Source: an uncultured Bacteroidales bacterium (GTDB lineage: Bacteria; Bacteroidota; Bacteroidia; Bacteroidales; FEN-979). Taken from it: a DNA stretch of 35,133 nucleotides. The first letter of the stretch is position 1. Each line of letters starts with the position of its first letter. Where the stretch lies: positions 1 through 35,133 of the forward strand of contig CAISJJ010000134.1 of assembly GCA_903885595.1 (NCBI GenBank). The letters are read 5' to 3'. Positions 5,016 through 33,814 of this stretch are shown piece by piece. A program made the position numbers and the translations under genes. Below the pieces are notes generated by a model. The model saw nothing but the letters and a program-made list of their open reading frames with translations. It was not told where the DNA came from and did not search any database.

Positions 5016-5046
5016 AATTACGAATTACAAATTACGAATTACGAAT
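5016..5046. repeat. Heptamer tandem array (AATTACG)4 in the rplU-rpmA gap
   Basis: Four 7-bp units AATTACG, AATTACA, AATTACG, AATTACG plus a partial unit. It occupies most of the gap inside the ribosomal operon, ending 10 bases before the rpmA ATG on the minus strand, so it is transcribed as part of the mRNA and sits in the rpmA translation-initiation leader. Same unit and same orientation as the array inside mfd at 17122-17156. Confidence 0.9.
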
Positions 5047-5052
5047 GCAGCT

Positions 5053-5421
5053 TTATAATTCTGCTGGTTCCTCTTCCGTTTCCTTTACATTTTTGGTTTT
5101 GCTTGCGCTTTGTAAACTGATATCTTCTATCAGTACTTTACTGAAATCCTGCCGGTGTCCCGATTCTTTCTCATATCCCTTGCGACGTTTCTTTTTAAAG
5201 ATAACTACTTTATCGCCTCTGACATGATCGACGATCTGGCCGGTGATGCTGGTACCTTCAACCAAAGGTTTGCCAACACTGATTTTGCCGTCGTTATCCA
5301 GCAGCAATACCTGATCAAATTCTATTTTTGTTCCTGGGTCACCTTCGAGCCGGTGAACAAAGATTTCGTCATTCTTCTCTACCTTAAACTGCTGACCAGC
5401 TATTTCAACGATTGCGTACAT
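5053..5421 (-). CDS. rplU: 50S ribosomal protein L21 with acidic C-terminal extension
   Basis: 122 residues. MYAIVEIAGQQFKVEKNDEI and KKKRRKGYEKESGHRQDF are the hallmark L21 segments (23S rRNA-binding large-subunit protein). The usual family length is near 103 residues. Here a tail of about 18 residues after ISLQ is rich in K/T and then E (VKETEEEPAEL) and extends past the normal end. First gene of the operon with rpmA; a strong promoter match lies upstream. Confidence 0.97.
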   Translation of the reverse strand: MYAIVEIAGQQFKVEKNDEIFVHRLEGDPGTKIEFDQVLLLDNDGKISVGKPLVEGTSITGQIVDHVRGDKVVIFKKKRRKGYEKESGHRQDFSKVLIEDISLQSASKTKNVKETEEEPAEL

Positions 5422-5456
5422 GATATAATGAGTTGATGTTCGTAAAATTGGGAGTG

Positions 5457-5486
5457 CAAAGTTATAAAATTTTTAACATCTCCAAA
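5457..5486 (-). promoter_or_regulatory. Promoter of rplU-rpmA
   Basis: On the minus strand TTTG at 5486-5483, an 18-base spacer and TAACTTTG at 5464-5457: an excellent match to the Bacteroidota TTTG/TAnnTTTG consensus. The predicted leader before the rplU ATG at 5421 is roughly 30 bases. The divergent ABC-F gene has its own box on the other side of this 230-base gap. Confidence 0.72.
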
Positions 5487-5610
5487 CCATAGCGGTAAAA
5501 AAAAGAAGATTTAATTTAAATTTATTACAAAGTCACCTTTTTACGAATTCAATATCATTCAGGTAGTATTTCCAAACAACACCGTTCAAACGTCACATGT
5601 ATCACCAAAG

Positions 5611-5643
5611 TTGCCATATGTCACGAATCTATTCTTATCTTTG
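5611..5643 (+). promoter_or_regulatory. Putative promoter of the ABC-F gene
   Basis: TTG at 5611 and TATCTTTG at 5636-5643, nine bases before the ATG at 5652. The -7 box is a perfect consensus match. The 22-base spacer is a little longer than typical, and the implied 5' leader is very short. Confidence 0.48.
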
Positions 5644-5651
5644 CATCGTAT

Positions 5652-7595
5652 ATGATTTCAATCAACAACCTTTCCATTCAGTTCGGCGGTGAATCGCTGT
5701 TTGATCATATTTCCTTCATTATTAATGACAAGGATCGGATTGGTCTTGTCGGGAAAAATGGGGCTGGAAAGTCGACTTTGCTTAAAATTATCAAGGGACT
5801 TCAGCGGGCCGATGAAGGTGATGTGATTCTTCCCGATGGCTATTCCGTTGGTTATTTGCCCCAGGAGATGGATACACATGGAACCGGGAGTGTAATTGAA
5901 GAGGCCATGAATGCATTTACTGAAGTGGTCGAACTCGAGGTGAAGATCGCGGGTTACGAGAATCAAATCAGCGAACGAACAGATTATGAATCGGAGAGCT
6001 ATCATAAACTCATCAGACGGCACTCAGAAGCGATCGAACGTTATCACCTCATTGGAGGACAGGCGGTTCATGTAAATATTGAGAAGGTTCTCACAGGCCT
6101 TGGATTTGAACGGGAAGAGTTTGACCGTAAGTTGTCGACCTTCAGCAGCGGATGGCAGATGCGCGTCGAAATTGCCAAAATCCTTCTGCAACGGCACGAT
6201 GTGATCTTACTGGATGAGCCCACAAACCATCTCGACATCGATTCCATTCAATGGCTGGAGGATTTTCTTGAAAATTTCAAAGGTGCGGTGGTGCTTGTTT
6301 CGCACGACAGAGCTTTCCTGGATAATGTTACGAAACGGTCGATCGAAATATCCCAGGGTAAACTTTATGATTACAAGGCAAACTATTCTGAATATGTTTT
6401 AATGCGCGAGGAACGGATGGAAAGTCAGCTGGCTACCCATAATAATCAGCAACGGCAGATCCGTCAGATTGAGCGGTTCGTTGAACGGTTCCGCTCGAAG
6501 GCGACCAAAGCAAAACAGGTTCAATCGCGCATTAAATTGCTCGAGAAAATTGACCTGGTTGAAGTGGATATGGTGGATGAATCGGGTATCCGCTTTCGGT
6601 TTCCCCCGGCGCCTCACTCAGGAAAGATCATTCTTGAAGGGAAAAACCTGAACAAAGATTATCCGCAGAAACGCGTACTGAACAACCTGGCTTTTTCAGT
6701 AATTAAAAATGACCGGATTGCATTTGTCGGAAAAAACGGGGAGGGGAAAACAACTTTGTCGAAAGTCATAACCGGACAAGTTGATTACACCGGGGAACTG
6801 AAATTCGGACACAATGTAGTTATCGGCTATTATGCTCAAAATCAGAGTGATTACCTTGATCCTGATAAAACTGTTTTTCAAACAATTGATGATATCGCAG
6901 TGGGCGATATCCGTCCAAGGATTAAGGGCATCCTGGGTGGTTTCCTGTTCAGCGGCGACGATATTGAAAAAAAGGTGAAGGTGCTTTCGGGCGGGGAAAA
7001 GTCAAGGCTGTCTCTGGCCAAGCTCCTGCTTACTCCTGCAAACCTGCTAATCCTTGACGAACCTACCAACCATCTTGATATGCACTCAAAGGATGTGTTG
7101 AAGAGTGCACTTCTGCAATACAATGGGACACTGGTTATTGTGTCGCATGACCGTGATTTTCTCCAGGGGCTTACCAACCGGGTTTTTGAATTCAGACATG
7201 GATCAATCAAGGAGTATCTGGGCGATATTTATGATTTCCTGGAACAGCGCAGGTTGCGGACCTTGAACGAACTCGAAGCGAATCAGAAAAAGATGGCTGC
7301 TCAATCTGCTGAAGACCCGGTTTCACAAAACAAGATCAATTGGGAAAAGCGAAGAGAAAGTGAGAAAGAGGTGCGCAAGGTAAAATCCCAGATTACAAAG
7401 TGTGAAACGGAAATTGAGAAGCTGGAAGCGGAACTGAAGGTTAAAGAAGGGATGCTTGGCACACCTGAAAAATATCAGAAACAGATTCAGGATGGGACAC
7501 TTTACAAAGCATATGAAGATCTTAAGGTTATATTAACCCGTGAAATGAAGCGCTGGGAAGAATTGAATTATGAACTCGAAGTGATGGAAGGATAA
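5652..7595 (+). CDS. ABC-F family ATP-binding cassette protein
   Basis: 647 residues with two ABC ATPase domains and no membrane segments, typical of ABC-F translation factors that act on ribosomes. Domain 1 has Walker A GKNGAGKST (about residue 34), signature FSSGWQMRV and Walker B ILLDEPTNHLD. Domain 2 has GKNGEGKTT (about residue 360), LSGGEKSRLSLAK and LLILDEPTNHLD. Between them is the charged interdomain linker (ERFVERFRSKATKAKQVQSR), and the C-terminus is a coiled coil of the Uup/YdiF kind. Members include EttA, Uup, YbiT and antibiotic-resistance proteins; sequence alone does not tell which role applies. Transcribed divergently from rplU, convergent with the polyprenyl synthase. Confidence 0.95.
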   Translation: MISINNLSIQFGGESLFDHISFIINDKDRIGLVGKNGAGKSTLLKIIKGLQRADEGDVILPDGYSVGYLPQEMDTHGTGSVIEEAMNAFTEVVELEVKIAGYENQISERTDYESESYHKLIRRHSEAIERYHLIGGQAVHVNIEKVLTGLGFEREEFDRKLSTFSSGWQMRVEIAKILLQRHDVILLDEPTNHLDIDSIQWLEDFLENFKGAVVLVSHDRAFLDNVTKRSIEISQGKLYDYKANYSEYVLMREERMESQLATHNNQQRQIRQIERFVERFRSKATKAKQVQSRIKLLEKIDLVEVDMVDESGIRFRFPPAPHSGKIILEGKNLNKDYPQKRVLNNLAFSVIKNDRIAFVGKNGEGKTTLSKVITGQVDYTGELKFGHNVVIGYYAQNQSDYLDPDKTVFQTIDDIAVGDIRPRIKGILGGFLFSGDDIEKKVKVLSGGEKSRLSLAKLLLTPANLLILDEPTNHLDMHSKDVLKSALLQYNGTLVIVSHDRDFLQGLTNRVFEFRHGSIKEYLGDIYDFLEQRRLRTLNELEANQKKMAAQSAEDPVSQNKINWEKRRESEKEVRKVKSQITKCETEIEKLEAELKVKEGMLGTPEKYQKQIQDGTLYKAYEDLKVILTREMKRWEELNYELEVMEG

Positions 7596-7600
7596 TCAGA

Positions 7601-7636
7601 TATACGATTTACGATTTACGATATACGATATACGAT
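7601..7636. repeat. Heptamer tandem array (TWTACGA)5
   Basis: Five 7-bp units TATACGA, TTTACGA, TTTACGA, TATACGA, TATACGA in the 72-base gap between the convergent ABC-F and polyprenyl synthase genes. The TTTACGA unit is the reverse complement of the TCGTAAA unit at 14596-14623. Confidence 0.9.
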
Positions 7637-7667
7637 TGACACCAAGGTTTTTCCCGCTTGACACCGA

Positions 7668-8642: not shown

Positions 8643-8646
8643 GATT

Positions 8647-9507: not shown

Positions 9508-9543
9508 GATACCTGGATTTGAGATGTCTGTATTCGGTTCAGT

Positions 9544-12052: not shown

Positions 12053-12096
12053 CTGGTAAGTTGGTAAGTTGGTAAGCTGGTAAGTTGGTAAGTTGG
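12053..12096. repeat. Octamer tandem array (YTGGTAAG)5
   Basis: Five 8-bp units: CTGGTAAG, TTGGTAAG twice, CTGGTAAG, TTGGTAAG, plus a partial TTGG. It lies between the divergent RND and dehydrogenase genes. Read on the other strand the unit is ACCAACTT/ACCAGCTT, the same family as the array at 30189-30276 and the short array at 12148-12173. Confidence 0.92.
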
Positions 12097-12175: not shown

Positions 12176-13129
12176 ATGAAAAAGGCACTCTTCATCGACT
12201 CCGTCCACCCCTTGATTTCCGAAGCGCTGACCGGCATGGGATTTCAGTGTGATTATTATCCTGAATATGGAAGAAAGGAGTTTTTATTGTCAGCAGATCA
12301 ATATACCGGGATCATCATCCGCAGTAAGATCAAACTTGATAAAGAATTTCTGGACAGGGCCACCCGTTTGAAGTTTATTGGCCGGGTTGGGGCCGGCATG
12401 GAGAGCATAGATGTGGATTACGCAATACTAAAAGGAATCATTTGCCTGAATTCCCCAGAGGGGAACCGTGATGCAGTGGGTGAACACACCTTGGGAATGC
12501 TGCTCTCATTAATGAACCATTTTATACGTGCCGACCATCAGGTGCGCAGCGGAAAATGGATCAGGGAGGGTAACCGGGGTACAGAGATTAAAGGTAAGAC
12601 AGTGGGAATCATTGGCTACGGAAACATGGGGAGTGCGTTTGCCCAGCGGCTGAAAGGATTTGAGGCTAAGGTTATCTCTTTTGACAAATACAAGAGCGGA
12701 TATACCGACGGTAACACCTTTGAAACATCGCTGGAGGAGATCTTCAGCGAAAGTGACATCGTGAGCCTGCACATCCCACTGACAGAGGAGACGAAATTCA
12801 TGGTGAATGATGACTTTATCCAGCACTTTCGGAAAAATATTTGGCTGATCAATACATCCAGGGGGCCGATAGTAAAGACCATAGATCTGGAAAAAAATAT
12901 TCTGACTGGAAAAATCGCTGGTGCAGCCCTGGATGTTCTGGAATATGAGGATGCCTCATTTGAAAATATTTCCGGGAAGTTTCCGGCTGAACTTGATTTT
13001 CTCCTTAAGTCTGACAAAGTGATTTTTACGCCGCACATCGCCGGGTGGACCTATGAGTCGAATATCAAACTTGCCAGAGTTCTTGTGGAGAAGATCAGGG
13101 AGACATTAGTCGTGACAGGTGACAGGTGA
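12176..13129 (+). CDS. D-isomer-specific 2-hydroxyacid dehydrogenase (phosphoglycerate-dehydrogenase-like)
   Basis: 317 residues. The NAD-binding Rossmann segment is VGIIGYGNMGSAFAQRL (about 143-159). The catalytic triad of the family is visible as Arg229 (NTSRGPIV), Glu256 (LDVLEYED) and His287 (TPHIAGWT). It may oxidise 3-phosphoglycerate for serine synthesis or act on another 2-hydroxyacid; there is no C-terminal ACT domain and no serC or serB neighbour, so the substrate is open. The C-terminal residues VVTGDR and the TGA stop are encoded by the heptamer array at 13112-13139, so the end of this protein is repeat-derived. Confidence 0.88.
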   Translation: MKKALFIDSVHPLISEALTGMGFQCDYYPEYGRKEFLLSADQYTGIIIRSKIKLDKEFLDRATRLKFIGRVGAGMESIDVDYAILKGIICLNSPEGNRDAVGEHTLGMLLSLMNHFIRADHQVRSGKWIREGNRGTEIKGKTVGIIGYGNMGSAFAQRLKGFEAKVISFDKYKSGYTDGNTFETSLEEIFSESDIVSLHIPLTEETKFMVNDDFIQHFRKNIWLINTSRGPIVKTIDLEKNILTGKIAGAALDVLEYEDASFENISGKFPAELDFLLKSDKVIFTPHIAGWTYESNIKLARVLVEKIRETLVVTGDR

Positions 13130-13139
13130 CGCGTGACAA
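13112..13139. repeat. Heptamer array (GTGACRV)4 overlapping the dehydrogenase stop
   Basis: Units GTGACAG, GTGACAG, GTGACGC, GTGACAA. The TGA at 13127-13129 lies inside the array. The reverse complement (YYGTCAC) is related to the GTCACGT and GTCCCGY units found in mfd, and the unit recurs at 14567-14587. Confidence 0.9.
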
Positions 13140-13329: not shown

Positions 13330-14562
13330 ATGAGGTACGAAAACAAACTATTCAAAGGCAAAACCTTAGCAATTTTATCAGGTGGCGGAGACACACCTGC
13401 AATCAATTCAAGTATCGAAGCTATCAGGAACCGCGCCTCATTACTGGGATTTAAAGTATATGGCATTTTGCAGGGCTGGAAAGGTCTCCTGGGGGATGGC
13501 GATGTGGTTGATCTTACCAACCAGCCTTACGATGGCTATTATGGGGGTACAGCATTACGTTCGAGCCGGACGAACCCGTTTCCTTCAAAGAAGAATCCTG
13601 TAAGCCGTGTTCCGCAGGTGTTGCGCAACTTTGAACGATATAAAATCGACGTCCTGGTTACCATCGGGGGCGATGATACAAATGGAGCGGCCAAACGGTT
13701 GTTCGAAACAGAAGGTATTCCGGTGATCGGGTTTCCAAAAACCATCGACAACGATTTGCGTACACGTACCATTCACACATACAAGGGGAAAGATATTGAA
13801 GCTGTCTTATGTCCCGGGTTCCCGTCGGCAGCCCTGACGATGATGGAATTCACTGCGAACCTCCGGACGACGGCTGAATCACATTCACGCGTACTGGTAA
13901 TGGAGGTGATGGGCCGCGATGCCGGCTGGCTGACTGGTTCGGCGGTATTTGGCGGGGCCACGCTTGGGCTCATTCCCGAATTTGAGATTACCAAAGAGCG
14001 CAAAGATGTGTTTTTCGAGACTGTCAAGGAGGCCTACATGCATTCAAAAAAGAGGTGTATCGTTATTCCGGTTTCAGAAGGAACCCGCTGGTATGATGAG
14101 AAAACCGGAAAGGTTGATGTGGTTTATGCCAGCTCTGAACTGGATGAATACGGGCATCCCCGGTTTGGTGGTGTAAGTGGAATTATTGCTTCGGAGATCA
14201 GCGCCAAACTTGGCATAGAAGCCCGTGCCCAGATTTCGGGATACTATCCCCGCTCTGGACATTGCAGGCATTATGATCGCCGGTTAACCGCCACCCTGGC
14301 CGATAAGGTCGTCGATTTGCTGCTTCGTGAAGAATACGGACAGATGCCGGTTATGAAAAAGATCGTGCCCAATGTTGAATTGGAGGAATTCAATACAACC
14401 TCGATCGATATGGGTGCCGTGGGAAACAAACCCTTGTCAGAAGATTATTATGATATCAGTAAGTTTGCCTTCACCGAGGCCTACCACGATTTCCTCAGCA
14501 ACATCCTCGGTTCTCCCGGATTTGACGAATTCAAGTATGATTTTCCGGTGGTGATACCGTGA
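13330..14562 (+). CDS. pfp: Phosphofructokinase, PPi-dependent signature
   Basis: 410 residues. It phosphorylates fructose-6-phosphate to fructose-1,6-bisphosphate. The substrate motifs SGGGDTPAINSSI, PKTIDNDL (catalytic Asp140) and MEVMGRDAGWLTG are clear. The two positions that separate donor classes are Asp116 in GGDDTNG (Gly in ATP enzymes such as E. coli PfkA) and Lys137 in PKTIDND (Gly in ATP enzymes). Both are of the pyrophosphate-using type, so a reversible PPi-PFK is predicted from established family rules. Automated annotation may call it pfkA. Together with the nearby FBPase it places the control of glycolysis and gluconeogenesis in this region. Two tandem arrays begin 5 bases after the stop. 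Confidence 0.9.
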   Translation: MRYENKLFKGKTLAILSGGGDTPAINSSIEAIRNRASLLGFKVYGILQGWKGLLGDGDVVDLTNQPYDGYYGGTALRSSRTNPFPSKKNPVSRVPQVLRNFERYKIDVLVTIGGDDTNGAAKRLFETEGIPVIGFPKTIDNDLRTRTIHTYKGKDIEAVLCPGFPSAALTMMEFTANLRTTAESHSRVLVMEVMGRDAGWLTGSAVFGGATLGLIPEFEITKERKDVFFETVKEAYMHSKKRCIVIPVSEGTRWYDEKTGKVDVVYASSELDEYGHPRFGGVSGIIASEISAKLGIEARAQISGYYPRSGHCRHYDRRLTATLADKVVDLLLREEYGQMPVMKKIVPNVELEEFNTTSIDMGAVGNKPLSEDYYDISKFAFTEAYHDFLSNILGSPGFDEFKYDFPVVIP

Positions 14563-14566
14563 TGAC

Positions 14567-14587
14567 GAGTGACAAGTGACGAGTGAC
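14567..14587. repeat. Heptamer array (RAGTGAC)3
   Basis: GAGTGAC, AAGTGAC, GAGTGAC, starting 5 bases after the phosphofructokinase stop. It belongs to the same GTGACRR family as 13112-13139 and is separated by only 8 bases from a second, different array. Confidence 0.88.
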
Positions 14588-14595
14588 AAAAAAAA

Positions 14596-14623
14596 TCGTA
14601 AATCGTAAACCGTAAATCGTAAA
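14596..14623. repeat. Heptamer array (YCGTAAA)4
   Basis: TCGTAAA, TCGTAAA, CCGTAAA, TCGTAAA between the convergent phosphofructokinase and aspartate kinase genes. It is the reverse complement of the TTTACGA units at 7601-7636. Confidence 0.9.
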
Positions 14624-14645
14624 TTCCTTCTTCATTGATCCCCTT

Positions 14646-17051: not shown

Positions 17052-20000
17052 TTGAAGCCTGCCGATCTTTTATCGCTTTTTAAAGAAAGTCGCCTGGTAA
17101 AGGAGATGGGTGGACATTTTGCGAATTACGAATTACGAATTACGAATTACGATTTAAAAGATCCTGAATCGAAAATTCCACCTTCGGCTTTCACAATCCA
17201 AACTTCGGAATCAGATATCCAGGAAATCAATACCCAAATCCTAAATCCGGAATCCGGAATTAGGTTTAGCGTTTCCGATATCAGGAATTCTGAATCCGAA
17301 CTAGTCCCGTGTCCCGCTTCCCGCGTCCCGCGTTTCAGGCTACACCTGAAAGGCCTGGTTGGTTCTTCCCGTTCTTTCGTTACCGCTGCTGTACTTGAGA
17401 CCACAACGCAAACGCACCTGGTGTTGCTACAGGACAAAGAATCGGCAGCCTACTTCTTTAACGATTTGCAGCAAATCCTTGGCGACCGTGTTTACTATTT
17501 TCCCTCTTCCTTCAAACGCGGGTTCCATACAGGAATTAAGGACAACCAGGGTTTATTGTCGCGCACCGAGGTACTGAACCATCTCAACAGCAGGGCGCGC
17601 AAATTCATTGTTGTAAGTTATCCTGAGGCTGTTGCCGAAAAGGTAGTCAATAAAAAGTACCTTGAAAAAAACACCTTGAAACTTTCTGTCGGGGAGCAGG
17701 TGAACATGGAATTTGTGCTTGATTTGCTGGTCGAGTATGAATTTGAACGTGCCGATTTTGTAGTTGAACCGGGCCAGTTCTCCCTGCGCGGCGGATTGAT
17801 TGATGTTTATTCCTTCAGCAGCGACCATCCGTTTCGTATTGAATTCGGAGGCGACAAAGTGTCGACCATCCGCACCTTTGACCCATCGACACAGCTCTCT
17901 GTCCAAAAATTGCATGAAATCAGCATTGTTCCTGACATCAGGGTCGATGCCAGTAAAAAAATTGCCTACGAGTCGATTTTCGCCTTTCTACCTGAAAAAG
18001 CCGTTGTATGGCTCGATGATGCAGGTTCTATGGCACACCTGATGGAAAAACAGCCTTCCTCTGATCTCCTTTTGCATGGAAGCGAGTTTTTAAAGTCATT
18101 ACTCGGTTTTTCAACCATCGAATTCGGACAGCAATTCTACTTTAAAACAGCACATCCAGTTGTTTTTAACACCGCACCGCAGCCATCTTTTAACAAGAAT
18201 TTTGACCTATTACTCCAGGATCTTCGAAGGAATACCGGTAGAGGATACAAGAATTTCCTGCTAGCAGATAATCCCAAACAGGCTGAACGGTTGCAGAGCA
18301 TATTTGAGGAAATAGAATCGAAGTCAGAAGTACAAAGTCAGAAGTACGAAGAACGGGAAATTGACACTGTCCCGCGTCCCGTGTCCCGTGTTCCGGAGGC
18401 TTCGTCAGTTGTCCCGCGTCACGTGTCCCGTGTCCCGGATGAACCATTGCACATTACCCTGAATTTCTCCCTCCACGAAGGTTTCATCGACAACGACCTG
18501 AAGATTGCCTGCTACACCGACCACCAGATATTTGAGCGTTACCATAAATTCCACCTGCGTGAAGGGTATACGGCCAAGGAGGCCCTGACCCTGAAAGATT
18601 TGTATGATTTGCGTCCGGGCGATTTTGTAACACACATCGATCACGGGGTCGGGCGGTTCGATGGGTTGGAAAAGATCAGCAACAATGGGAAGGAACAGGA
18701 GGCAATCAGGCTCATTTATAAAAATGAGGATCTGCTTTATGTCAGTATTCATTCACTTCACAGGATATCAAAATACATCGGGAAGGAGGGCACCGCCCCC
18801 TCGCTGAACCGCCTTGGTTCAGATGTCTGGAATAAACTCAAGAATAAAACCAAGAGCCGGGTCAAGGATATTGCCAAGGAACTAATCAAATTGTATGCTG
18901 AACGGCGTGCTGCGCAAGGGTTGGCCTGTTCTCCTGATACCTATATGCAGACAGAGCTTGAAGCTTCCTTTATTTATGAAGACACTCCCGATCAGATCAA
19001 GGCCACAGTTGATGTTAAAAGGGATTTGGAAGAAACCTATCCGATGGACCGGCTGATATGCGGAGATGTTGGGTTTGGAAAAACAGAGATCGCTATCCGT
19101 GCGGCTTTTAAAGTAGTAGCGGAGAGCAAACAGGTAGCCATCCTGGTTCCCACGACCATCCTTGCTTTGCAGCATTTTAAAACATTTTCTGATCGGTTGA
19201 AAGCTTTTCCCTGCAGGGTTGATTACATCAACAGGTTTAAATCGGCCAAAGAACAGAAAAAATTGTTAGCTGAACTTGAGGAAGGGAAAATCGATATCCT
19301 GATCGGCACGCACCGGCTGCTTAGCAAGGATATTATTTTTAAGGACCTTGGATTGCTCGTCATTGATGAAGAACAGAAATTCGGAGTCGGAGCAAAGGAA
19401 AAAATTAAAATGCTCAGGGTAAATGTGGATACCCTCACCCTTACGGCTACACCTATTCCGCGAACGCTGCAATTTTCGCTCATGGGGGCCCGCGATCTTT
19501 CAATCATCAATACGCCGCCGCCAAACCGCTATCCTGTTCAAACCGAAATCCATCCATTTGGTGAGGAGGTTATCAAAGAGGCCATTATCTTCGAGGTTTC
19601 GCGTGGCGGACAGGTCTTTTTTGTGACCACGCGTGTGGTGAATATTATGGACATTGCCGGGATGGTGCAGCGCATGGTTCCCGGGGTTAAGGTTGCGGTA
19701 GCCCATGGGCAGATGGAGGGGCATAAGCTTGAAAAGGTTATGCTCGATTTCATTGAAGGTGAATACGACGTACTTATTGCCACAACAATTATTGAATCTG
19801 GCCTGGATATCTCGAATGTAAACACAATCCTCATCAACGATGCCCACCATTACGGGCTAAGCGACCTCCATCAGTTACGCGGAAGGGTGGGACGATCAAA
19901 TAAAAAAGCATTTTGTTATTTGCTGGCGCCACCGATGTCGTTACTTACCGAGGAAGCGAAAAAAAGACTGCGGGCGATTGAGGAGTTTGCCGACCTGGGA

Positions 20001-20660
20001 AGTGGTTTTAACATTGCAATGCGCGACCTCGATATCCGGGGTGCTGGCAACATACTTGGCGCTGAACAGAGTGGTTTTATATCGGAAATCGGCTATGAAA
20101 TGTACCAGAAAATCCTTGACGAAGCATTGCTGGAACTGAAGGAAACTGATTTTAAAGATCTGTTCCACCCCGATATTCCTACTTCTTATGTACGGGATTG
20201 CGTCATAGAAACTGATCTTGAAATTCTGATCCCTGATGATTATATTACCAACATCACCGAACGGTTAAATCTTTACAAGGAGCTGGATTCCATTGATACG
20301 GATGCAAACCTGATAAAATTCAGAGAACGGCTGATCGACCGGTTTGGTCCTGTGCCGGAACAAACAGAATCGTTGCTGCAAACCATTCGCCTCCGGTGGC
20401 TGGCCCGCAGCATTGGATTTGAGAAACTGGTGCTGAGAAACCAGCGGCTGACAGCCTATTTTATCAATAATCCTGAATCGGCCTATTTCCAGTCAGACCA
20501 ATTCTCAGCTATCCTCGAATTCATGAAAAATAACCCTTCCGGATGCAAAATGACAGAGGAAAAAAACAGGTTATTCATGACCTTCAGGGATGTTCCTGAA
20601 ATCAATGCTGCGCTTGTCAGATTGGAAGCATTCCAAATTTTAAAAGTTACTAACATTTAA
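17052..20660 (+). CDS. mfd: Transcription-repair coupling factor with repeat-built insertions
   Basis: 1202 residues. Mfd removes RNA polymerase stalled at DNA lesions and recruits UvrA. The UvrB-like N-terminal region (LKGLVGSSRSFVTAAVLE onward), the RNA-polymerase-interaction domain (RPGDFVTHIDHGVGRFDG, from about residue 521), the RecG-like helicase with Walker A GDVGFGKT (about 671-678) and DEEQ box (about 771), and the C-terminal TRCF domain are all present. The start is TTG, 7 bases after the fbp stop; the next ATG is 18 codons in. Two segments foreign to the family interrupt it: about residues 24-98 and 424-463. Both are encoded by tandem heptamers and keep the frame, and without them the length would be the usual 1085-1090 residues. 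The catalytic domains are intact, so the protein is probably functional. Confidence 0.96.
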   Translation: MKPADLLSLFKESRLVKEMGGHFANYELRITNYDLKDPESKIPPSAFTIQTSESDIQEINTQILNPESGIRFSVSDIRNSESELVPCPASRVPRFRLHLKGLVGSSRSFVTAAVLETTTQTHLVLLQDKESAAYFFNDLQQILGDRVYYFPSSFKRGFHTGIKDNQGLLSRTEVLNHLNSRARKFIVVSYPEAVAEKVVNKKYLEKNTLKLSVGEQVNMEFVLDLLVEYEFERADFVVEPGQFSLRGGLIDVYSFSSDHPFRIEFGGDKVSTIRTFDPSTQLSVQKLHEISIVPDIRVDASKKIAYESIFAFLPEKAVVWLDDAGSMAHLMEKQPSSDLLLHGSEFLKSLLGFSTIEFGQQFYFKTAHPVVFNTAPQPSFNKNFDLLLQDLRRNTGRGYKNFLLADNPKQAERLQSIFEEIESKSEVQSQKYEEREIDTVPRPVSRVPEASSVVPRHVSRVPDEPLHITLNFSLHEGFIDNDLKIACYTDHQIFERYHKFHLREGYTAKEALTLKDLYDLRPGDFVTHIDHGVGRFDGLEKISNNGKEQEAIRLIYKNEDLLYVSIHSLHRISKYIGKEGTAPSLNRLGSDVWNKLKNKTKSRVKDIAKELIKLYAERRAAQGLACSPDTYMQTELEASFIYEDTPDQIKATVDVKRDLEETYPMDRLICGDVGFGKTEIAIRAAFKVVAESKQVAILVPTTILALQHFKTFSDRLKAFPCRVDYINRFKSAKEQKKLLAELEEGKIDILIGTHRLLSKDIIFKDLGLLVIDEEQKFGVGAKEKIKMLRVNVDTLTLTATPIPRTLQFSLMGARDLSIINTPPPNRYPVQTEIHPFGEEVIKEAIIFEVSRGGQVFFVTTRVVNIMDIAGMVQRMVPGVKVAVAHGQMEGHKLEKVMLDFIEGEYDVLIATTIIESGLDISNVNTILINDAHHYGLSDLHQLRGRVGRSNKKAFCYLLAPPMSLLTEEAKKRLRAIEEFADLGSGFNIAMRDLDIRGAGNILGAEQSGFISEIGYEMYQKILDEALLELKETDFKDLFHPDIPTSYVRDCVIETDLEILIPDDYITNITERLNLYKELDSIDTDANLIKFRERLIDRFGPVPEQTESLLQTIRLRWLARSIGFEKLVLRNQRLTAYFINNPESAYFQSDQFSAILEFMKNNPSGCKMTEEKNRLFMTFRDVPEINAALVRLEAFQILKVTNI
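17122..17156. repeat. Heptamer array (CGAATTA)5 inside mfd
   Basis: Four perfect CGAATTA units plus CGATTTA, read in frame as a 7-residue period (NYELRIT then NYDL). Same unit and direction as 5016-5046. Because 7 is not a multiple of 3, all three frames are used; this strand is stop-free, whereas the opposite strand has TAA every 21 bases. Confidence 0.93.
17236..17263. repeat. Degenerate heptamer array (RAATCCG)4 inside mfd
   Basis: AAATCCT, AAATCCG, GAATCCG, GAATTAG within the first mfd insertion. Coded peptide QILNPESGI. Further degenerate ATCCGAA-like pieces surround it up to 17303. Confidence 0.72.
17304..17332. repeat. Heptamer array (GTCCCGY)4 inside mfd
   Basis: GTCCCGT, GTCCCGC, TTCCCGC, GTCCCGC ending the first insertion, coding for VPCPASRVPR. 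Conserved Mfd sequence resumes directly after it (LHLKGLVGSS). Confidence 0.92.
18321..18355. repeat. Heptamer array (AAGTMMR)5 inside mfd
   Basis: AAGTCAG and AAGTACR alternate (a 14-base higher-order unit), ending in AAGAACG. It codes for SEVQSQKYEERE at the beginning of the second mfd insertion. Confidence 0.85.
18369..18438. repeat. Two GTCCCGY heptamer arrays inside mfd
   Basis: Four units at 18369-18396 (GTCCCGC, GTCCCGT, GTCCCGT, GTTCCGG) and four at 18411-18438 (GTCCCGC, GTCACGT, GTCCCGT, GTCCCGG), separated by 14 bases. Both give the peptide period VPRPVSR / VPRHVSR, the same register as the 17304 array. The GTCACGT unit links this family to the GTGAC arrays. Confidence 0.93.
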
Positions 20661-20738: not shown

Positions 20739-21761
20739 ATGAAAAAACTTGTACTCTTTTTTACTGCACTGTTATCAGCTGGTGCCATTTTTGCCCAAAC
20801 AGACTGTGCTGACCTTTTTATTTCAGAATATGTGGAAGGCTGGAACAACAACAAATCAATGGAGATCTACAATCCCACGCAGGCATCGATTACACTTGAC
20901 AATGTTTACAGACTTATCCGCTGGTCGAACGGAGCCACAAACTCTGACCAGGACAAGCAGTATGTACTGCCATTAGTCAGCACGATTCCGGCCTTTGGTG
21001 TGATGGTTATGATCCAGGATACTATCCCTGAAGGTCAGGATACCATGGTATGGCCTGCATTACGTAAAAAAGCCACCTGGCTTGCTCCCTATGCATACAA
21101 TACAACACCACCAACCCAGGGAGGAAATGTTGTGTTCTGGAATGGCGATGACGCCATTTCTCTCCAGAAAAAGCAAACGAATGGTACCTGGGTAGATATA
21201 GATATTTTTGGTGAGATCGGAGTAAAACCTAAAGCCGGCGGAACTGGTACTTTGGGAGCATGGACTGACACGAAACCTTACTGGACCGGAGTTGGCCGAT
21301 ATATGACCCTGAACAAAACGCTTGTGCGCAAACATACGGTAAAACACGGTGTCGATCGTCAAACTATGATCCATTATGGCGATAGCATGACCGGAAATGA
21401 TCCAAACAGTTTCAATGCAAAGTTGGAATACGATTCACTGCCAGGTAATACTTTTGACAGCCTTGGTCAGCACAGGTGTGATTGTAAAGGCTCATCCGGT
21501 ATTGGAAAACTTATGCAGGACCAAAGTGTGGTGATTTTGCCAAACCCGGTGACTAATAACCACTTTACGATTCAGGCAAAAATGCCTGTTGCATCTGTTG
21601 CTGTTGTTTCAATTGTCGGTCAAACTGTCTATTCCCAGGATTTCAACCTTCGTCAGGAGGAGGTAAAGGTTTTACTGAATAACCTTCCGGAGGGGGTTTA
21701 TCTGGTCAAAGTGAAATTTGGCGACAACCAATCAACGATTAAAAAAATCATTGTTCAATAA
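20739..21761 (+). CDS. Secreted T9SS protein with lamin-tail-like domain
   Basis: 340 residues. The signal peptide (MKKLVLFFTALLSAGAIFAQ) is cleaved near residue 19. Residues about 22-140 (CADLFISEYVEGWNNNKSME IYNPT, then LDNVYRL and IPAFGVMVMIQD) resemble lamin-tail-type domains that occur on extracellular nucleases and phosphoesterases. The last roughly 80 residues (VVILPNPVTNNHFTI, IVGQTVYSQ, LPEGVYLVKVKFG, KKIIVQ) form a type A T9SS sorting domain, so export across the outer membrane and surface anchoring or release are expected. There is no visible catalytic domain. It is followed by the TonB-dependent receptor gene on the same strand, with two palindromes in between. Confidence 0.82.
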   Translation: MKKLVLFFTALLSAGAIFAQTDCADLFISEYVEGWNNNKSMEIYNPTQASITLDNVYRLIRWSNGATNSDQDKQYVLPLVSTIPAFGVMVMIQDTIPEGQDTMVWPALRKKATWLAPYAYNTTPPTQGGNVVFWNGDDAISLQKKQTNGTWVDIDIFGEIGVKPKAGGTGTLGAWTDTKPYWTGVGRYMTLNKTLVRKHTVKHGVDRQTMIHYGDSMTGNDPNSFNAKLEYDSLPGNTFDSLGQHRCDCKGSSGIGKLMQDQSVVILPNPVTNNHFTIQAKMPVASVAVVSIVGQTVYSQDFNLRQEEVKVLLNNLPEGVYLVKVKFGDNQSTIKKIIVQ

Positions 21762-21770
21762 TGTCACTTT

Positions 21771-21798
21771 GTAGATACATGAATTATCATGCATCTAC
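21771..21798. repeat. REP-like palindrome 1 between secreted-protein and receptor genes
   Basis: GTAGATACATGA, loop ATTA, TCATGCATCTAC: a 12-bp stem with one mismatch, 9 bases after the stop codon. There is no T-run, so it is a weak terminator candidate. It has the GTAGA...TCTAC outline of a dispersed palindrome. Confidence 0.62.
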
Positions 21799-21824
21799 GT
21801 TTCAATCCCATTGAAGATTTTAGG

Positions 21825-21844
21825 GGACATGACAAGTCATGTCC
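21825..21844. repeat. REP-like palindrome 2
   Basis: GGACATGAC, AA, GTCATGTCC: a perfect 9-bp inverted repeat with a 2-base centre. It lies 26 bases after palindrome 1 and 39 bases before the receptor ATG, inside its presumed leader. Confidence 0.65.
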
Positions 21845-21883
21845 AGGTAAGATATCCTCGTTGTCTACAAAATCCAAAAAACT

Positions 21884-29579: not shown

Positions 29580-29674
29580 GTGCAGTGAATCTTTATTTCA
29601 ACATTCTCAATTTGTTGATCAAGATTCGATATTCATTAATCGTTGTTCATGTACTAAAAAATAAATATTGACAG

Positions 29675-30127: not shown

Positions 30128-30188
30128 CAAATGGCAACCTGCAACTGATAAGTATAAATAGTATAGACAGCAAGCCCAATACTCATCT

Positions 30189-30276
30189 ACCTGTTTACCT
30201 GCTTACCTGCTTACCAGCTTACCAGTTTGCCAGCTTGCCAACTTGCCAACTTGCTAACTTGCTAACTTGCCAATTT
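30189..30276. repeat. Octamer tandem array, 11 units, with graded variants
   Basis: Eleven 8-bp units without gaps: ACCTGTTT, two ACCTGCTT, ACCAGCTT, ACCAGTTT, GCCAGCTT, two GCCAACTT, two GCTAACTT, then GCCAATTT. Neighbouring units differ by only one to three bases, so the sequence drifts steadily from one end to the other. It fills about half of the 172-base gap between the convergent MORN lipoprotein and nuclease genes. The reverse complement matches the YTGGTAAG array at 12053. There are no spacers, so it is not CRISPR. Confidence 0.95.
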
Positions 30277-30299
30277 TCTCTGTTGACTTATCACGTAAA

Positions 30300-31313
30300 T
30301 TAATAATTTACAACGGTATATACCGGCAGGTGATCGCTGAATCCCCCAAAATATTCTTTTGATCCGGCAGTGCGGTTTGGCAGTAATTCTCCTTTTTTGT
30401 TTTTATACAAAATCCAGTCAGGTTTAAAGATGTAAGCGTAAGGTGGAAGAATATAAGCTCCCTTGCGCTTTTTTATGAGGAGGTTTCCTGAAACAATGAT
30501 CTGATCGAACATGTCCCAATCTTTATAATACAGGGTGCCTTCCCCTTTCAGAAAGCGTTCACACATCAGGTTATATAACCGGGATGGAGATGGTTTTTTG
30601 TCTGTTTGGCCAGCATGCATTATTTCTGCAAGGCTTTTATTATCAGGCTCATCATTGAAATCTCCCATGATCACAATGTTGGCATTGGGATTCTTCGCCA
30701 TAACAGAATCTGTAAGATGTTTTAAGGTGACAGCATTTTCAATACGCTGAGGTTCAGTCTCGGCTGCCCCTCCTGAACGTGATTTCCAGTGATTGATAAA
30801 TAGATGAAAAGTGTCTTTTTTTGCATCAGCAAGGCGAACATATAAAACGGAACGTGTTTTAAAAGACAATGCTGAAGGAAAGGCCTGGTGGCCGATGTAT
30901 TGCATCAAATCTTTCCGGTAAAGCAATGCAACATCGATGCCCCGCGGATCGCTGCCCTCTTCCAGGATTGCCTGGTAGTTTCCTTTTTGCAATTGGGTTT
31001 TGGTGATCAGGTCATTCAAAACCATGATGTTCTCTACCTCGGCAAGCCCGACTGCTGCAGGCAGATTAATGCTGTCGATGCCAACCAATACCCTGGCAAT
31101 GTTGGTAAGTTTATGGTTGTACCGCTCACTCGTCCATGCAACCTTTGACCCAGGTAAAAAATCCTCATCACTTTTATTTGGATCATCAATGGTGTCAAAA
31201 ATGTTTTCAGTATTGTAGAAAGCAATTTTAAACTGACCGGCTCCACTTTTCTGAGCCTGCGAACTAACCGTGAAACAAAAGGTCAGAACTAAATAAAAAA
31301 TAGTATTTCGCAT
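30300..31313 (-). CDS. Exported endonuclease/exonuclease/phosphatase family protein
   Basis: 337 residues with a signal peptide (cut near SSQAQ, residue 20). The EEP fold signatures are FKIAFYNTENIFDT (first Asn), VGLAEVEN (Glu metal ligand), FINHWKSR (catalytic His), IVIMGDFNDEPDN (Asp/Asn) and the C-terminal FSDHLPVYTV (Asp-His pair). The catalytic residues for Mg-dependent phosphodiester hydrolysis are therefore all present. Exported members act on nucleic acids or phosphorylated lipids and sugars; the substrate is not evident. No T9SS tail, so it is probably periplasmic. Alone on this strand, upstream of a palindrome. Confidence 0.9.
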   Translation of the reverse strand: MRNTIFYLVLTFCFTVSSQAQKSGAGQFKIAFYNTENIFDTIDDPNKSDEDFLPGSKVAWTSERYNHKLTNIARVLVGIDSINLPAAVGLAEVENIMVLNDLITKTQLQKGNYQAILEEGSDPRGIDVALLYRKDLMQYIGHQAFPSALSFKTRSVLYVRLADAKKDTFHLFINHWKSRSGGAAETEPQRIENAVTLKHLTDSVMAKNPNANIVIMGDFNDEPDNKSLAEIMHAGQTDKKPSPSRLYNLMCERFLKGEGTLYYKDWDMFDQIIVSGNLLIKKRKGAYILPPYAYIFKPDWILYKNKKGELLPNRTAGSKEYFGGFSDHLPVYTVVNY

Positions 31314-31342
31314 GATTATTATTTTTTTAACCGTACCAACGT

Positions 31343-31366
31343 CCCCCTCTCCTTGAGGAGAGGGGG
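31343..31366. repeat. Perfect 10-bp palindrome, CCCCCTCTCC / TTGA / GGAGAGGGGG
   Basis: A 24-base hairpin with perfect 10-bp arms and a TTGA loop, in the 140-base gap between two minus-strand genes, followed by a G-rich tail (GTCGGGGGTGAGG). The symmetry and lack of a T-run suggest a dispersed repeat rather than a terminator. Confidence 0.75.
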
Positions 31367-31403
31367 TGTCGGGGGTGAGGTAAATTGCCCGGCAAAGATC
31401 AAT

Positions 31404-31435
31404 AAAAAAGGGGCACCCTTGACGAGCCCCCTTTT
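31404..31435 (-). terminator. Rho-independent terminator of the coiled-coil lipoprotein gene
   Basis: On the minus strand GGGGGC, an 11-base loop, GCCCC and then TTTTTT. The arm pairs AAAAGGGG with CCCCTTTT with one bulged base. It begins 19 bases after the stop at 31454. Confidence 0.7.
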
Positions 31436-31453
31436 CAATAATTTTAAAACATC

Positions 31454-32305
31454 TTAATCAACAACGATAACCAGGTATTTTGAATTCGACCAAAAAGCCT
31501 TGTAATCGAGGATCTGGAGTGACTGGATCACCTTTTTATCACCCGTGAATTTATAAGCGCTTGATGGGTGATTTGACAGGATCTTTGCTTTCTTGCTCAG
31601 GATCGAAATTTCAGTCACTTTGCGTATGTCGATCTTTGTGAACAACTCTTTGTTGAAATCAGAAAGAATTTCACCGCTTTTAATAACCGAGCTCTTTTTC
31701 AGTTCCTTGTTGGTGCCAATTACGTAATAGGCTGAGTTCAGGGCTTCATCCTGAGATGCAATTGTTTGCGTTTGATTATTGATCTGGGAACCCTGATCTT
31801 TCACGGTCCGGGACAGTGTGTCGATTTTCAGGTTAGCCATTTCAAACGAGGCATTGAGTTTAGCCAGCTTTGTACGAAGATCCTCAATTTGTGAAGCCTT
31901 GTCGGCAAGATCCTTGTTAAGGCGTTCAACCATTTTGTTCAGTTCGTCTACCTTCATATTGGCGTTTTTCAGTTTCTTAGACAGAGCGCCGATGGTTTCC
32001 TTGTTTTTTTGCATCAGACTGTAGATAGTCTGGATATCATTTTTTATCTGTTCCTTGGCCGACAGTTTTAATTCACCGCCACGGTCAGTAGTGAGATTGA
32101 TGATGTTTTCCTTTTGTTTGATTGTGTCCAGTGTTCCCTGGATGTCGTTGATGGAGCGGATAAATTCGTTGATAGCTTCATCCTTTTGCATGGTTTGGCT
32201 AAGCAGACTGTCAGATTTAGCCTGCAATTCCTGGGCTTTTTTCTCCGCTGCACGGCCGCATGCGAAAAACACAGGGATCAATAAAAGCAAAAAATACTTT
32301 TTCAT
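31454..32305 (-). CDS. Coiled-coil lipoprotein
   Basis: 283 residues. The lipoprotein signal MKKYFLLLLIPVFFACG places Cys at about residue 16. Residues about 20-195 form a long heptad-repeat coiled coil rich in K, E, L and N (KELQ, KKLKNANMKVDELNKMVERL). A compact C-terminal domain (YYVIGTNKELKKSSVIK, then ILSNHPSSAYKF and YLVIVVD) follows, probably in the periplasm. It resembles a widespread Bacteroidota family of coiled-coil lipoproteins with no firm function. It has its own putative promoter and terminator, so it is monocistronic. Confidence 0.8.
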   Translation of the reverse strand: MKKYFLLLLIPVFFACGRAAEKKAQELQAKSDSLLSQTMQKDEAINEFIRSINDIQGTLDTIKQKENIINLTTDRGGELKLSAKEQIKNDIQTIYSLMQKNKETIGALSKKLKNANMKVDELNKMVERLNKDLADKASQIEDLRTKLAKLNASFEMANLKIDTLSRTVKDQGSQINNQTQTIASQDEALNSAYYVIGTNKELKKSSVIKSGEILSDFNKELFTKIDIRKVTEISILSKKAKILSNHPSSAYKFTGDKKVIQSLQILDYKAFWSNSKYLVIVVD

Positions 32306-32327
32306 TTGTCGTGGATTTGAATTTTTA

Positions 32328-32335
32328 CAAAATTA
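32328..32335 (-). promoter_or_regulatory. Putative -7 box for the coiled-coil lipoprotein
   Basis: Minus-strand TAATTTTG lies 23 bases before the ATG at 32305. No convincing -33 TTG. Confidence 0.4.
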
Positions 32336-32447
32336 CGAATAAAATCAGAAATATTTTAATAAACTAATTTCCTCATTTCTGGTAGCTGCCAAAAAGTTTC
32401 TAAAGGAATTTGTCAACTAACAGTAACTTTACCAAAAAATATACGAA

Positions 32448-33764
32448 ATGACCTGTTTAGTAAAAATTATTCTGAAGCCTGGGAAAGAGGCTGCAGTTAA
32501 ACGCTTTCATCCCTGGATCTTCTCAGGTGCCATTGGAAAAACAGAAGGAGCGCCACGGGAAGGGGATATCGTCGAGGTTAGAAGCGCGCATAATGAATTT
32601 CTTGCCTTAGGTCATTATCTGCCGGGATCCATTGCTGTTAAAATATTTTCGTTTGTTGCGGCCGAATCAAAGGATGGTTTCTGGAAAGCAAAGTTGAAAT
32701 CAGCATGGGAATTAAGGGACAGGCTTGGACTCACCAGAGGATCCATCACAAATGCATATCGCCTTGTTTTCTCCGAAGGAGATATGTTGCCAGGTTTGAT
32801 AATCGACTATTACAACGGGGTGGCTGTTATTCAGGTACACTCAATCGGGATGCAACGGTTGTTGCCTGTTTTTACAGATACGTTGGTGGAGTTGTATGGA
32901 AGCAAACTCCTCGCCGTTTACGACAAGAGCTCCGAGACAATGGAAAAGTCAAAACTCATAACCCGTAATTCCAAACTTTTTCTTAAAACAGGAAACTCAG
33001 CAGATCAAAAAGGTGCCATTGCCACAGTCCGTCAGTCTGCCAGTCCGCCAGTCCACCTTTCTGCCGCTTCTCCAACCTGCCAGTCATCTATTTCCTCCGA
33101 CCATTTTCTCTTCGGATCGTCAGGCCCGGTAGAAATTCTTGAGACAGGCCATCGCTTTACAGTTGATTTTATCCGTGGACAAAAAACCGGTTTCTTCCTT
33201 GATCAGCGGGGAAACCGGATGTTTGCACAGTTTTATGCGAAAGATAAAAAGGTGTTGAATGCATTTTGTTATTCAGGCGCCTTTTCGGTGTATGCATTGA
33301 AGGGAGGAGCCTCCCTGGTGCATTCCGTTGACAGTTCAAGGATGGCAATAGACTGGACTGAAGAAAACATCCGTATAAATGGGTGTGACCAGGGTCGGCA
33401 CAAGTCATTTGTGGCAGATATCAAACAGCATCTAGTTGAAACAGGTGAAAAATACGATATGATCATCCTTGATCCTCCGGCCTTTGCGAAAACACATCAC
33501 GTGACTAACAATGCCCTGCACGCATATGTCCACATCAATGTTGCAGCCATGAAACTTTTAAATCCAGGGGGATTGCTATTTACTTTTTCCTGTTCTCAAC
33601 CAATTTCAAGGGAGATGTTTCGCTCAGCGATCCAATCTGCTGCAATCGAAACCGGCCGCCAGGTCAGAATTTTACACCAGTTGTCGCAAGGCCCCGATCA
33701 TCCGGTCGGCATCTGCCACCCTGAGGGAGAATACCTTAAAGGTTTAATTGTTGAAGTGATGTAA
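32448..33764 (+). CDS. rlmI: RlmI-like class I SAM-dependent 23S rRNA methyltransferase with internal insertion
   Basis: 438 residues against the usual 390-400. The N-terminal PUA domain (KRFHPWIFSGAIGKTEG) is followed by the RlmI linker domain and a Rossmann methyltransferase: GQKTGFFLDQRGNR, SAM-binding NAFCYSGAFSVYALKGGA, acidic SVDSSRMAIDWTEENI and catalytic ILDPPAFAKT. It is expected to methylate a cytosine C5 in 23S rRNA. Between DKSSETMEKS and HFLFGSSGPVEILETGHRF about 45 low-complexity residues (roughly 168-221) intervene that are not expected in the family. Part of them is coded by octamer repeats at 33023-33054. The catalytic core lies after the insert and looks intact. Confidence 0.92.
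   Translation: MTCLVKIILKPGKEAAVKRFHPWIFSGAIGKTEGAPREGDIVEVRSAHNEFLALGHYLPGSIAVKIFSFVAAESKDGFWKAKLKSAWELRDRLGLTRGSITNAYRLVFSEGDMLPGLIIDYYNGVAVIQVHSIGMQRLLPVFTDTLVELYGSKLLAVYDKSSETMEKSKLITRNSKLFLKTGNSADQKGAIATVRQSASPPVHLSAASPTCQSSISSDHFLFGSSGPVEILETGHRFTVDFIRGQKTGFFLDQRGNRMFAQFYAKDKKVLNAFCYSGAFSVYALKGGASLVHSVDSSRMAIDWTEENIRINGCDQGRHKSFVADIKQHLVETGEKYDMIILDPPAFAKTHHVTNNALHAYVHINVAAMKLLNPGGLLFTFSCSQPISREMFRSAIQSAAIETGRQVRILHQLSQGPDHPVGICHPEGEYLKGLIVEVM
33023..33054. repeat. Octamer array (GCCAGTCC)4 inside the rlmI-like gene
   Basis: CACAGTCC, GTCAGTCT, GCCAGTCC, GCCAGTCC within the insertion, coding for TVRQSASPPV. The unit is close to GCCAGCTT and ACCAGTCA of the intergenic octamer arrays at 30189 and 12148. 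Less regular CTGCC/CCAGT pieces continue to about 33090. Confidence 0.82.
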
Positions 33765-33793
33765 TTTCATGAATTTCTTATATCACGCTTCTC

Positions 33794-33814
33794 TTTCCGG
33801 TATCCCGCATCCCG
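33794..33814. repeat. Short heptamer array (YATCCCG)
   Basis: TTTCCGG, TATCCCG, CATCCCG, with an isolated TATCACG at 33781, in the 58-base gap between the convergent rlmI-like and lipoprotein genes. Related to the GTCCCGY units in mfd; only three units, so it is less certain. Confidence 0.55.

Follow-up and report, generated by a model that had tools for sequence, protein, structure and literature searches.

The stretch of DNA analyzed here, referred to as the window, is contig C134 (35,133 nucleotides) within the 6.02 Mb assembly, in 547 contigs, of an uncultured Bacteroidales bacterium. Its genes are ordinary: rplU, an ABC-F type gene, a polyprenyl synthase gene, a D-2-hydroxyacid dehydrogenase gene, pfk, an aspartokinase-like gene, an FBPase gene, mfd, and a gene for an RlmI-like methyltransferase. 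The closest named relative of the Mfd protein, with 85% identity, derives from an uncultured Bacteroidales metagenome-assembled genome. Between, next to and within these genes lie tandem arrays of 7- or 8-bp units, which an initial annotation based on the sequence alone had described; at the places it named, 13 arrays (10 heptamer and 3 octamer) pass the threshold of a lag scan. Here we report that elsewhere in this genome, in its relatives and in several other phyla, arrays of this kind stand as matched inverted pairs around small genes for four-helix-bundle (4HB) proteins, and we weigh what this means for solo arrays such as those of the window.

Tandem arrays with periods of 7 and 8

The frequency of the arrays was determined in 611,386 bases of the genome, composed of the window and 40 further stretches, one of them trimmed for overlap. 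This sample includes some long contigs known from a search with the CGAATTA pattern; outside the window, the matched places were avoided. Exact tandem runs of at least 12 matches were found 40 times at period 7 and 33 times at period 8, compared to none at periods 5, 6, 9, 10, and 11, thereby bearing out the preference for 7 and 8 over neighbouring periods that the initial annotation had put forward. One third-order Markov resample contained zero runs at period 7 or 8 and one at period 10. Allowing mismatches (score 12) resulted in 53 arrays of period 7 and 34 of period 8 versus 0 to 4 at each of the periods 4, 5, 6, 9, 10, and 11; periods 14, 16, and 21 were raised too, as multiples. Period 9 represents a minor class (6 of 99 sample arrays and 3 of 66 element arms, see below).

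The recurrence of units at distant loci and in both orientations, likewise proposed for the window, proved to be a genome-wide system. A three-unit CGAATTA pattern with up to two mismatches yielded 67 placements in the genome, counting overlapping placements inside one array, versus 0 for the reversed control. The sample comprises 25 canonical heptamer and 28 canonical octamer units, and AAAATGC is its most frequent heptamer family. A common unit form NN[AC]CGNN with one CpG per unit, also suggested earlier, did not hold, as just 27 of the 55 consensus units of heptamers and 13 of the 38 of octamers contain a CpG.

Scans of 60 to 100 kb from each of several genomes of the genus or family gave counts at periods 7 and 8 of 12 and 4 (G018), 4 and 4 (G003), 6 and 2 (G020), 4 and 2 (G008), 2 and 2 (G006), and 1 and 4 (G017), period 9 reaching 3 in G003 and G017. 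The corresponding counts in other families of the order were 0 and 1 (G026), 0 and 0 (G039), and 2 and 0 (G027). Across 80 named Bacteroidota loci (1.46 Mb), 25 arrays of period 7 and 6 of period 8 were counted, with 12 each at periods 6 and 9; ten complete genomes of the phylum (400 kb) contained 11 at period 7, 5 at period 6, 2 at period 10, and 1 each at periods 8 and 9. Arrays of the same kind were also met in independently assembled relatives and, in other phyla, on complete plasmids. The earlier statement that no equivalent was known in Bacteroidota has to be corrected: MacGregor 2015 (PMC4679880) reports TAACTGA arrays in five Bacteroidetes.

Four-helix-bundle genes between matched inverted arrays

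Gene order near mfd is mostly conserved among the relatives fetched. At the convergent junction of pfk and the aspartokinase-like gene, compared by eye in 19 genomes, arrays are present in 11 and missing in 8; they belong to at least seven unit families, some common to two or three genomes. In G017, this junction carries a match to PF05635 (profile positions 1–87 of 106) between inverted octamer arrays, and PF05635 was therefore examined. This 4HB family is the S23 or 23S_rRNA_IVP family, also represented by TIGR02436. The genome of the window contains 12 PF05635 matches above cut-off, two of them with an internal stop, and because none of the 12 is located on the window contig, the link to 4HB genes was invisible in the initial annotation. 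TIGR02436 matches two of the own proteins, and the structure 2gsc_A was matched with an E value of 6.8e-28. At E ≤ 0.001, PF05635 was detected in 35 of 41 relatives and 232 of 296 genomes of a phylum sample, and no match was obtained in 14 control genomes.

The flanks of the 4HB genes were analyzed at 71 loci, namely, the 12 own loci, the best match from each of 29 relatives, and, from the phylum set, those of its 30 best genomes, drawn from the 35 relatives' genomes (own included) and 232 phylum genomes with a match; the phylum assignment rests on named relatives. Complementary ends able to form a stem, that is, 5′ and 3′ flanks matching in inverted orientation with a score of at least 30, are present at 10 of 12 own loci, 25 of 29 loci of relatives, and 14 of 30 phylum loci, altogether 49 of 71 (39 of the 59 non-own loci). 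The same flanks compared in direct orientation reached this score at 10 of 71 loci, and shuffled partners did so in 2.7% of 1500 comparisons. Among control open reading frames (ORFs), 2 of 382 in the own genome, 2 of 364 in relatives, and 9 of 303 in the phylum set scored at least 30 (Fisher 2e-16 for the own genome). The two own loci below 30 are L246, which has a 5′ array only, and L252, which lies near a contig end.

A full element in the own genome measures approximately 450–950 bp and consists of an array, a short leader, the 4HB gene, and the reverse-complement array. The arm unit is matched within the element and different between many copies, the own units including GTGACRC, CGGGACR, GGCGGACA, AGTTCCC, AATGCAAAC, TGATTGAC, TGCAAAR, and AGGTAGCG. 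In predicted folds of 10 own elements, most of each arm pairs with the other arm. Where neighbours were read (not every locus is annotated), the elements occupy intergenic positions or the ends of protein genes and not rRNA helices.

Some features of individual loci were noted in addition. A near-palindrome, TTTTCYGATTAANCAGAAAA, with variants, was seen by eye before the 4HB start in L242, L243, L245, L260, L262, and L273, perhaps an operator or an RNA hairpin. The GCGGGAC arms of L243 show a higher-order repeat on both sides, with heptamer groups spaced by AAAT or ACTTT. The stronger of the two own control ORFs scoring at least 30 is an ordinary gene (L050, 12716–13937) with inverted flanks scoring 92, and in L009 (1316–2114) inverted AATTACG arrays surround an ordinary-looking ORF of 169 amino acids, YbaK-like as named by eye.

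The same architecture was encountered on plasmids. A tblastn search against complete plasmids yielded 37 records, 31 of them cyanobacterial, and the flanks were read in 20 of the 37. Inverted arms scored at least 30 in 17 and at least 40 in 13 of these 20 records, compared to 6.8% and 3.9%, respectively, for shuffled partners and 3 of 20 at both thresholds in direct orientation. Fourteen of the 17 loci with arms are cyanobacterial, the others belonging to Gemmatirosa, Azospirillum, and Riemerella; all three failures are cyanobacterial as well. One Gemmatimonadota and one alphaproteobacterial record have this architecture. The plasmid units, for example, TCAGAAG, GGGAACA, AGGGTGT, and TTAGCTG, are heptamers of the type named STRR in cyanobacteria. 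The likeness to STRR pointed out in the initial annotation was a good lead, as complete cyanobacterial plasmids have such arrays flanking the same protein family. One query against phages gave no 4HB match. Three 4HB genes are situated amid cas genes, in L346 (Anabaena sp. 90 plasmid), L348 (Pseudanabaena galeata), and L358 (Picosynechococcus PCC 7003), twice between cas6 and cas4 and once between cas10 and cmr3, with inverted arm scores of 55, 59, and 29, respectively. 23S_rRNA_IVP genes in cas loci have been reported earlier (PMC3936711) and may reflect arm-flanked 4HB elements.

Arm period and arm sequence follow the protein clade. Arm analyses were performed with the 66 of 91 loci scoring at least 30, of which 43 have arms of period 7, 18 of period 8, 3 of period 9, and 2 of period 6. 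On a protein tree of these 66 loci, each protein was compared with the closest one that belongs to a different genome and a different site (neighbour ORFs not shared). The period was the same in a fraction of 0.74 compared to 0.49 expected, and the arm similarity was 0.30 compared to 0.16, both values being reached in 0 of 999 permutations. GTGACGC heptamers characterize one clade and GGTAACAG octamers another, and TTAGC heptamers are common to a copy in G051, a genome of this phylum, and a cyanobacterial copy. The nonamer AATGCAAAC occurs in two genomes, in copies that share a neighbour.

The arms further show a fixed polarity, with G exceeding C in 61 and falling below C in 3 of the 66 5′ arms and purines making up more than half in 56 (42 of 50 in Bacteroidota and 14 of 16 in others). 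An early grammar of the heptamer units in terms of purine and keto positions was a by-eye reading, of which only the G-over-C and purine biases were counted. Where the neighbours at the 91 loci are co-directional, the 4HB gene was found in sense 57 times and in antisense 10 times (p = 4e-9, based on a crude ORF call).

Insertions at fixed places vary among congeners. At a site adjacent to sufE, a PF05635 match is present in at least 5 of the 15 own-genus genomes having sufE. At the junction corresponding to Mfd residues 425–462, differing heptamer arrays were observed in several species and none in others, in a comparison of loci with mfd on the plus strand, 10 of 26 loci yielding no usable junction. 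Two congeners share site and unit at the corA junction and carry the 4HB gene in opposite directions, an arrangement expected if the segment between the arms had inverted or if two insertions had taken place. A 4HB-like frame, not among the PF05635 matches listed, was also read by eye at the pfk junction of G007.

Origin of the solo arrays and competing explanations

The arms of own elements (10 used for comparison) were matched by 21 of the 99 arrays in the sample, compared to 1 of 99 when the arms were reversed. In mfd of the window, the GTCCCG arrays match best the own element L243, and the GTGAC arrays at 13112 (0.90) and 14563 (0.70) match best the arms of L262, an element of a congener. 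Solo arrays are likely related to the 4HB elements. Within 700 bp and at a score of at least 28, a direct partner was found for 13 of the 99 arrays. Targeting of gene ends was considered because a called stop lies within 12 bp of the start of 28 arrays out of 99 in the own genome and 19 out of 70 in relatives; this closeness is not evidence for targeting because a stop-bearing array itself ends the ORF.

The interpretation we favour, with a probability of roughly 0.57, is that array, 4HB gene, and inverted array form a dispersed element, kin to the rRNA intervening sequences, and that the solo arrays are in part its relics. The architecture and the co-inheritance are observed; mobility of the element, recognition of the arms by the protein, and this origin of solo arrays are what we infer. 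The element would be transcribed along with the operon of the host, and its arms would pair into a long hairpin with the 4HB message in the loop, as in rRNA intervening sequences. A 4HB oligomer might bind its own arm unit and thereby set the period. Slippage would lengthen the arrays, and copying from arm to arm via the hairpin would keep the arms matched, while spread would proceed through an unidentified DNA or RNA step, probably by host enzymes. Solo arrays, such as those of the window, would be partly relics or strays of arms and partly arrays that slippage expanded further, which is the weakest step of this proposal. A far wider version is tentative. It would comprise a class of small selfish elements in several phyla, whose 4HB protein recognises and propagates its own arms with a clade-specific code and a period (7, 8, or 9) set by oligomer geometry; rRNA intervening sequences, STRR heptamers, Bacteroidota octamers, and Avd would then form one lineage and most solo heptamer arrays of such genomes would be its footprints.

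Several observations weigh against the dispersed 4HB element as source of the arrays or limit the evidence for it. In the unbiased sample, an inverted partner (within 700 bp, score at least 28) accompanies just 1 of 99 arrays compared to 4.4% obtained with the flanks of other arrays, and most arrays are therefore not element arms now; the idea that all arrays are arms of inverted pairs was rejected for the present state on these grounds. The 12 4HB places face approximately 970 arrays (scaled from 99 in 611 kb), and the AATTACG, TTTACGA, and GGTAAGTT families have no match among the 4HB arms collected. In support of the element, array density correlates with PF05635 copy number in ten genomes (rho 0.82); this value is not corrected for kinship, and the PF05635-poor genomes offered too little sequence for a comparison (1 array in 80 kb versus 12 in 400 kb). 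The whole-matrix comparison of arms and proteins agrees with co-inheritance and is weak (rho −0.14, 6 of 999). Also in its favour, 17 of 20 pairs at shared sites have arms that match better inside one element than between species, a comparison that used elements preselected for matched arms. The direct score exceeds the inverted score at L247, L308, L348, L272, and L274; 14 of the 30 best phylum loci attain a score of 30, several of them weakly, and L287 and L299 have no 7- or 8-bp period. The PF05635 gene at the pfk junction of G017 is cut short. Finally, the analysis identified neither a transfer event nor a target duplication nor an enzyme.

Plain replication slippage is the rival that survives best, although we regard it as unlikely. 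The geometry of DNA polymerase would favour duplications of 7 to 8 bp, a proposal of Mrazek et al. 2007 (cited by both PMC4679880 and PMC4692102), and the 4HB genes would merely tolerate neutral microsatellites. The prevalence of solo arrays fits this explanation, as do their positions in tolerant places (junctions, gene ends, and parts of mfd and of the RlmI-like gene where they stay in frame), the different units of congeners at one junction, and the fact that heptamers are the most frequent class of long repeats in other genomes (PMC4679880, PMC4692102). Slippage, however, predicts neither inverted matched pairs at 4HB genes, nor the fact that unit and period are inherited along with the protein, nor the polarity of the arms, nor octamers almost as frequent as heptamers next to a complete lack of exact runs at 6 or 9.

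That a separate transposase or reverse transcriptase moves the element, with the 4HB gene as cargo or helper like Avd in diversity-generating retroelements, appears improbable. PF05635 resembles Avd (PMC10053308), one own 4HB protein obtained a weak score with the Avd model (25.8 bits, cut-off 80), and inverted ends of fixed polarity are reminiscent of transposon ends. The own genome contains one RVT_1 match, at a contig end, and three Y1_Tnp matches. Nevertheless, RVT_1 had no match in G010, G011, G013, and G020 despite 6 to 10 PF05635 matches each, and Y1_Tnp had none in G005, G008, G010, G011, G015, and G021 with 5 to 16 PF05635 matches (these are drafts, some incomplete, and the search covered Y1_Tnp among the transposase families). 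A required role of either enzyme as mover is not supported by these searches. Least probable are terminators, processing stems, or three-frame translation stops selected to insulate small genes, with lone arrays serving ordinary genes likewise: tight inverted pairs without a gene do occur between convergent genes in G016, G014, and G018 and also in L313 and L320, the arms pair in the predicted folds, and stops block every reading frame in 29 of 66 5′ arms compared to 13 of 66 reverse complements, but this is just 29 of 66 for a supposedly universal role, 10 of 66 arms have no stop in any frame on either strand, the pfk junction manages without an array in 8 of 19 genomes, and a terminator requires neither tandem structure nor a tie to the protein clade.

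The dispersed 4HB element shares traits with several known systems. REPIN/RAYT systems consist of short dispersed repeats standing inverted around a gene that possibly acts on them, and Y1_Tnp is present in the own genome; the repeats here differ in being tandem arrays, and several element-rich genomes have no Y1 transposase match. Diversity-generating retroelements share a related protein family, Avd (PMC10053308), whereas several element-rich genomes have no reverse transcriptase match. The intervening sequences of rRNA possess an S23p ORF of the same four-helix-bundle family between complementary ends, with a stem of 28 bp in one species, have been called selfish, and are excised by RNase III (PMC4990558); the ORF was proposed to serve mobility (Ralph and McClelland 1993, cited in PMC4990558). 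The elements described here differ in being many per genome, located between protein genes or at their ends instead of in rRNA helices (commonly 9, 25, or 45), and bounded by tandem 7- or 8-bp arms in place of a plain stem. With STRR and other long simple sequence repeats, of which Nostoc and Xanthomonas are said to have many (PMC4679880, PMC4692102), they have in common dispersed tandem heptamers of variable units far above chance (40 exact runs in 611 kb). Here, in contrast, octamers are nearly as frequent (33 exact runs), so that period 7 does not stand alone, and part of the arrays are paired around a 4HB gene, of which the available parts of PMC4679880 and PMC4692102 make no mention. The TAACTGA repeats, reported from Beggiatoaceae, Cyanobacteria, and five Bacteroidetes (PMC4679880), are likewise heptamers at gene borders, with stops in three frames in one orientation, but have one unit sequence compared to the 25 heptamer and 28 octamer units found here.

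Both the combination of 4HB gene and arrays and the correspondence of repeat unit with protein clade appear to be new, the parts being known separately as S23 ORFs in rRNA and heptamer arrays in several phyla. No report tying 4HB genes to tandem arrays was found in a partial literature search that left subscription papers mostly outside and is not proof. Little is known about heptamer repeats (PMC4692102), and the function of S23 proteins, among which Xcc0516 (2gsc) is a pentamer of four-helix bundles, is not known (PMC4990558). These two questions would be joined, each 4HB protein having a candidate binding site in its own arm repeat. If true, our interpretation would add a small element class and may explain why arrays are found within essential genes and at their ends; it would also suggest a setting resembling the ancestral one for the rRNA intervening sequences and possibly for Avd.

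Arrays and neighbouring features of the window

The positions of the arrays, together with the 7- and 8-bp arrays called by Tandem Repeats Finder, are compiled in Table 1. Tandem Repeats Finder found no array near 33814, where the range given in the initial annotation ends, and an Rfam search of the window gave no matches.

Table 1: Tandem arrays of the window and the mfd gene.
Feature	Position	Strand	Tandem Repeats Finder	Context
Heptamer array AATTACG / CGTAATT	5016..5046	-	5016-5046	6 bp below stop of rplU (5053-5421, minus; L21)
Heptamer array TWTACGA	7599..7636	+	7599-7636	begins 3 bp past stop of ABC-F type gene (5652-7595)
Octamer array GGTAAGTT	12054..12096	+	12054-12096	divergent genes on either side
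Heptamer array GTGACRN	13112..13138	+	13112-13138	3′ end of D-2-hydroxyacid dehydrogenase gene; ORF stop falls inside array
Heptamer array TGACRAG	14563..14589	+	14563-14589	at stop of pfk (13330-14562)
Heptamer array AAATCGT	14593..14624	-	14593-14624	flanked by convergent pfk and aspartokinase-like genes
mfd (transcription-repair coupling factor)	17052..20660	+		two separate matches to TIGR00580; hosts arrays at two variable sites
Heptamer array CGAATTA	17119..17156	+	17122-17156	in frame, near mfd N terminus
Short heptamer array AATCCGG	17233..17260	+	17244-17260	in frame within mfd
Heptamer array GTCCCGY	17304..17333	+	17304-17333	in frame within mfd; unit family as in arms of own element L243 (0.68)
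Heptamer array AAGTMMR	18321..18351	+	18321-18351 (as 14 = 2x7)	in frame within mfd
Two GTCCCGY heptamer arrays (18369-18395, 18411-18437)	18368..18437	+	18368-18437	in frame within mfd; 0.81 to L243 arms
Octamer array ACCAGYTT / GCCAACTT	30188..30276	-	30188-30273	flanked by convergent genes
Octamer array CAGTCCGC	33025..33057	+	33025-33054	in frame in RlmI-like methyltransferase gene (32448-33764)

Several of these places were compared in congeners. The 3′ junction of the ABC-F type gene measures 1 bp in L231 (G002), 10 bp in L238 (G007), and 19 bp in L240 (G009). The junction holding the first octamer array of the window contains other octamer arrays in G008, G012, G014, G011, and G003, and the mfd junction with the two GTCCCGY arrays carries a different array in several congeners. 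The RlmI-like protein is approximately 45 residues longer than its family model, the additional stretch being located just before residue 229.

Two further kinds of repeats were observed. At 21760–21850 of the window and at the orthologous junction in many congeners, another palindrome, for example, GAGACGTGGCATGCCACGTCTC, follows the same gene as judged by eye, representing a recurrent hairpin at a fixed place. The N-terminal site of mfd, which harbours heptamer arrays in this genome, is occupied in congeners (L153, L155, L158, L166, L168, and L233) by a palindrome rich in GC, of the type CCCTCCC...GGGAGGG, and a similar repeat is also present in the window at 31345–31380.

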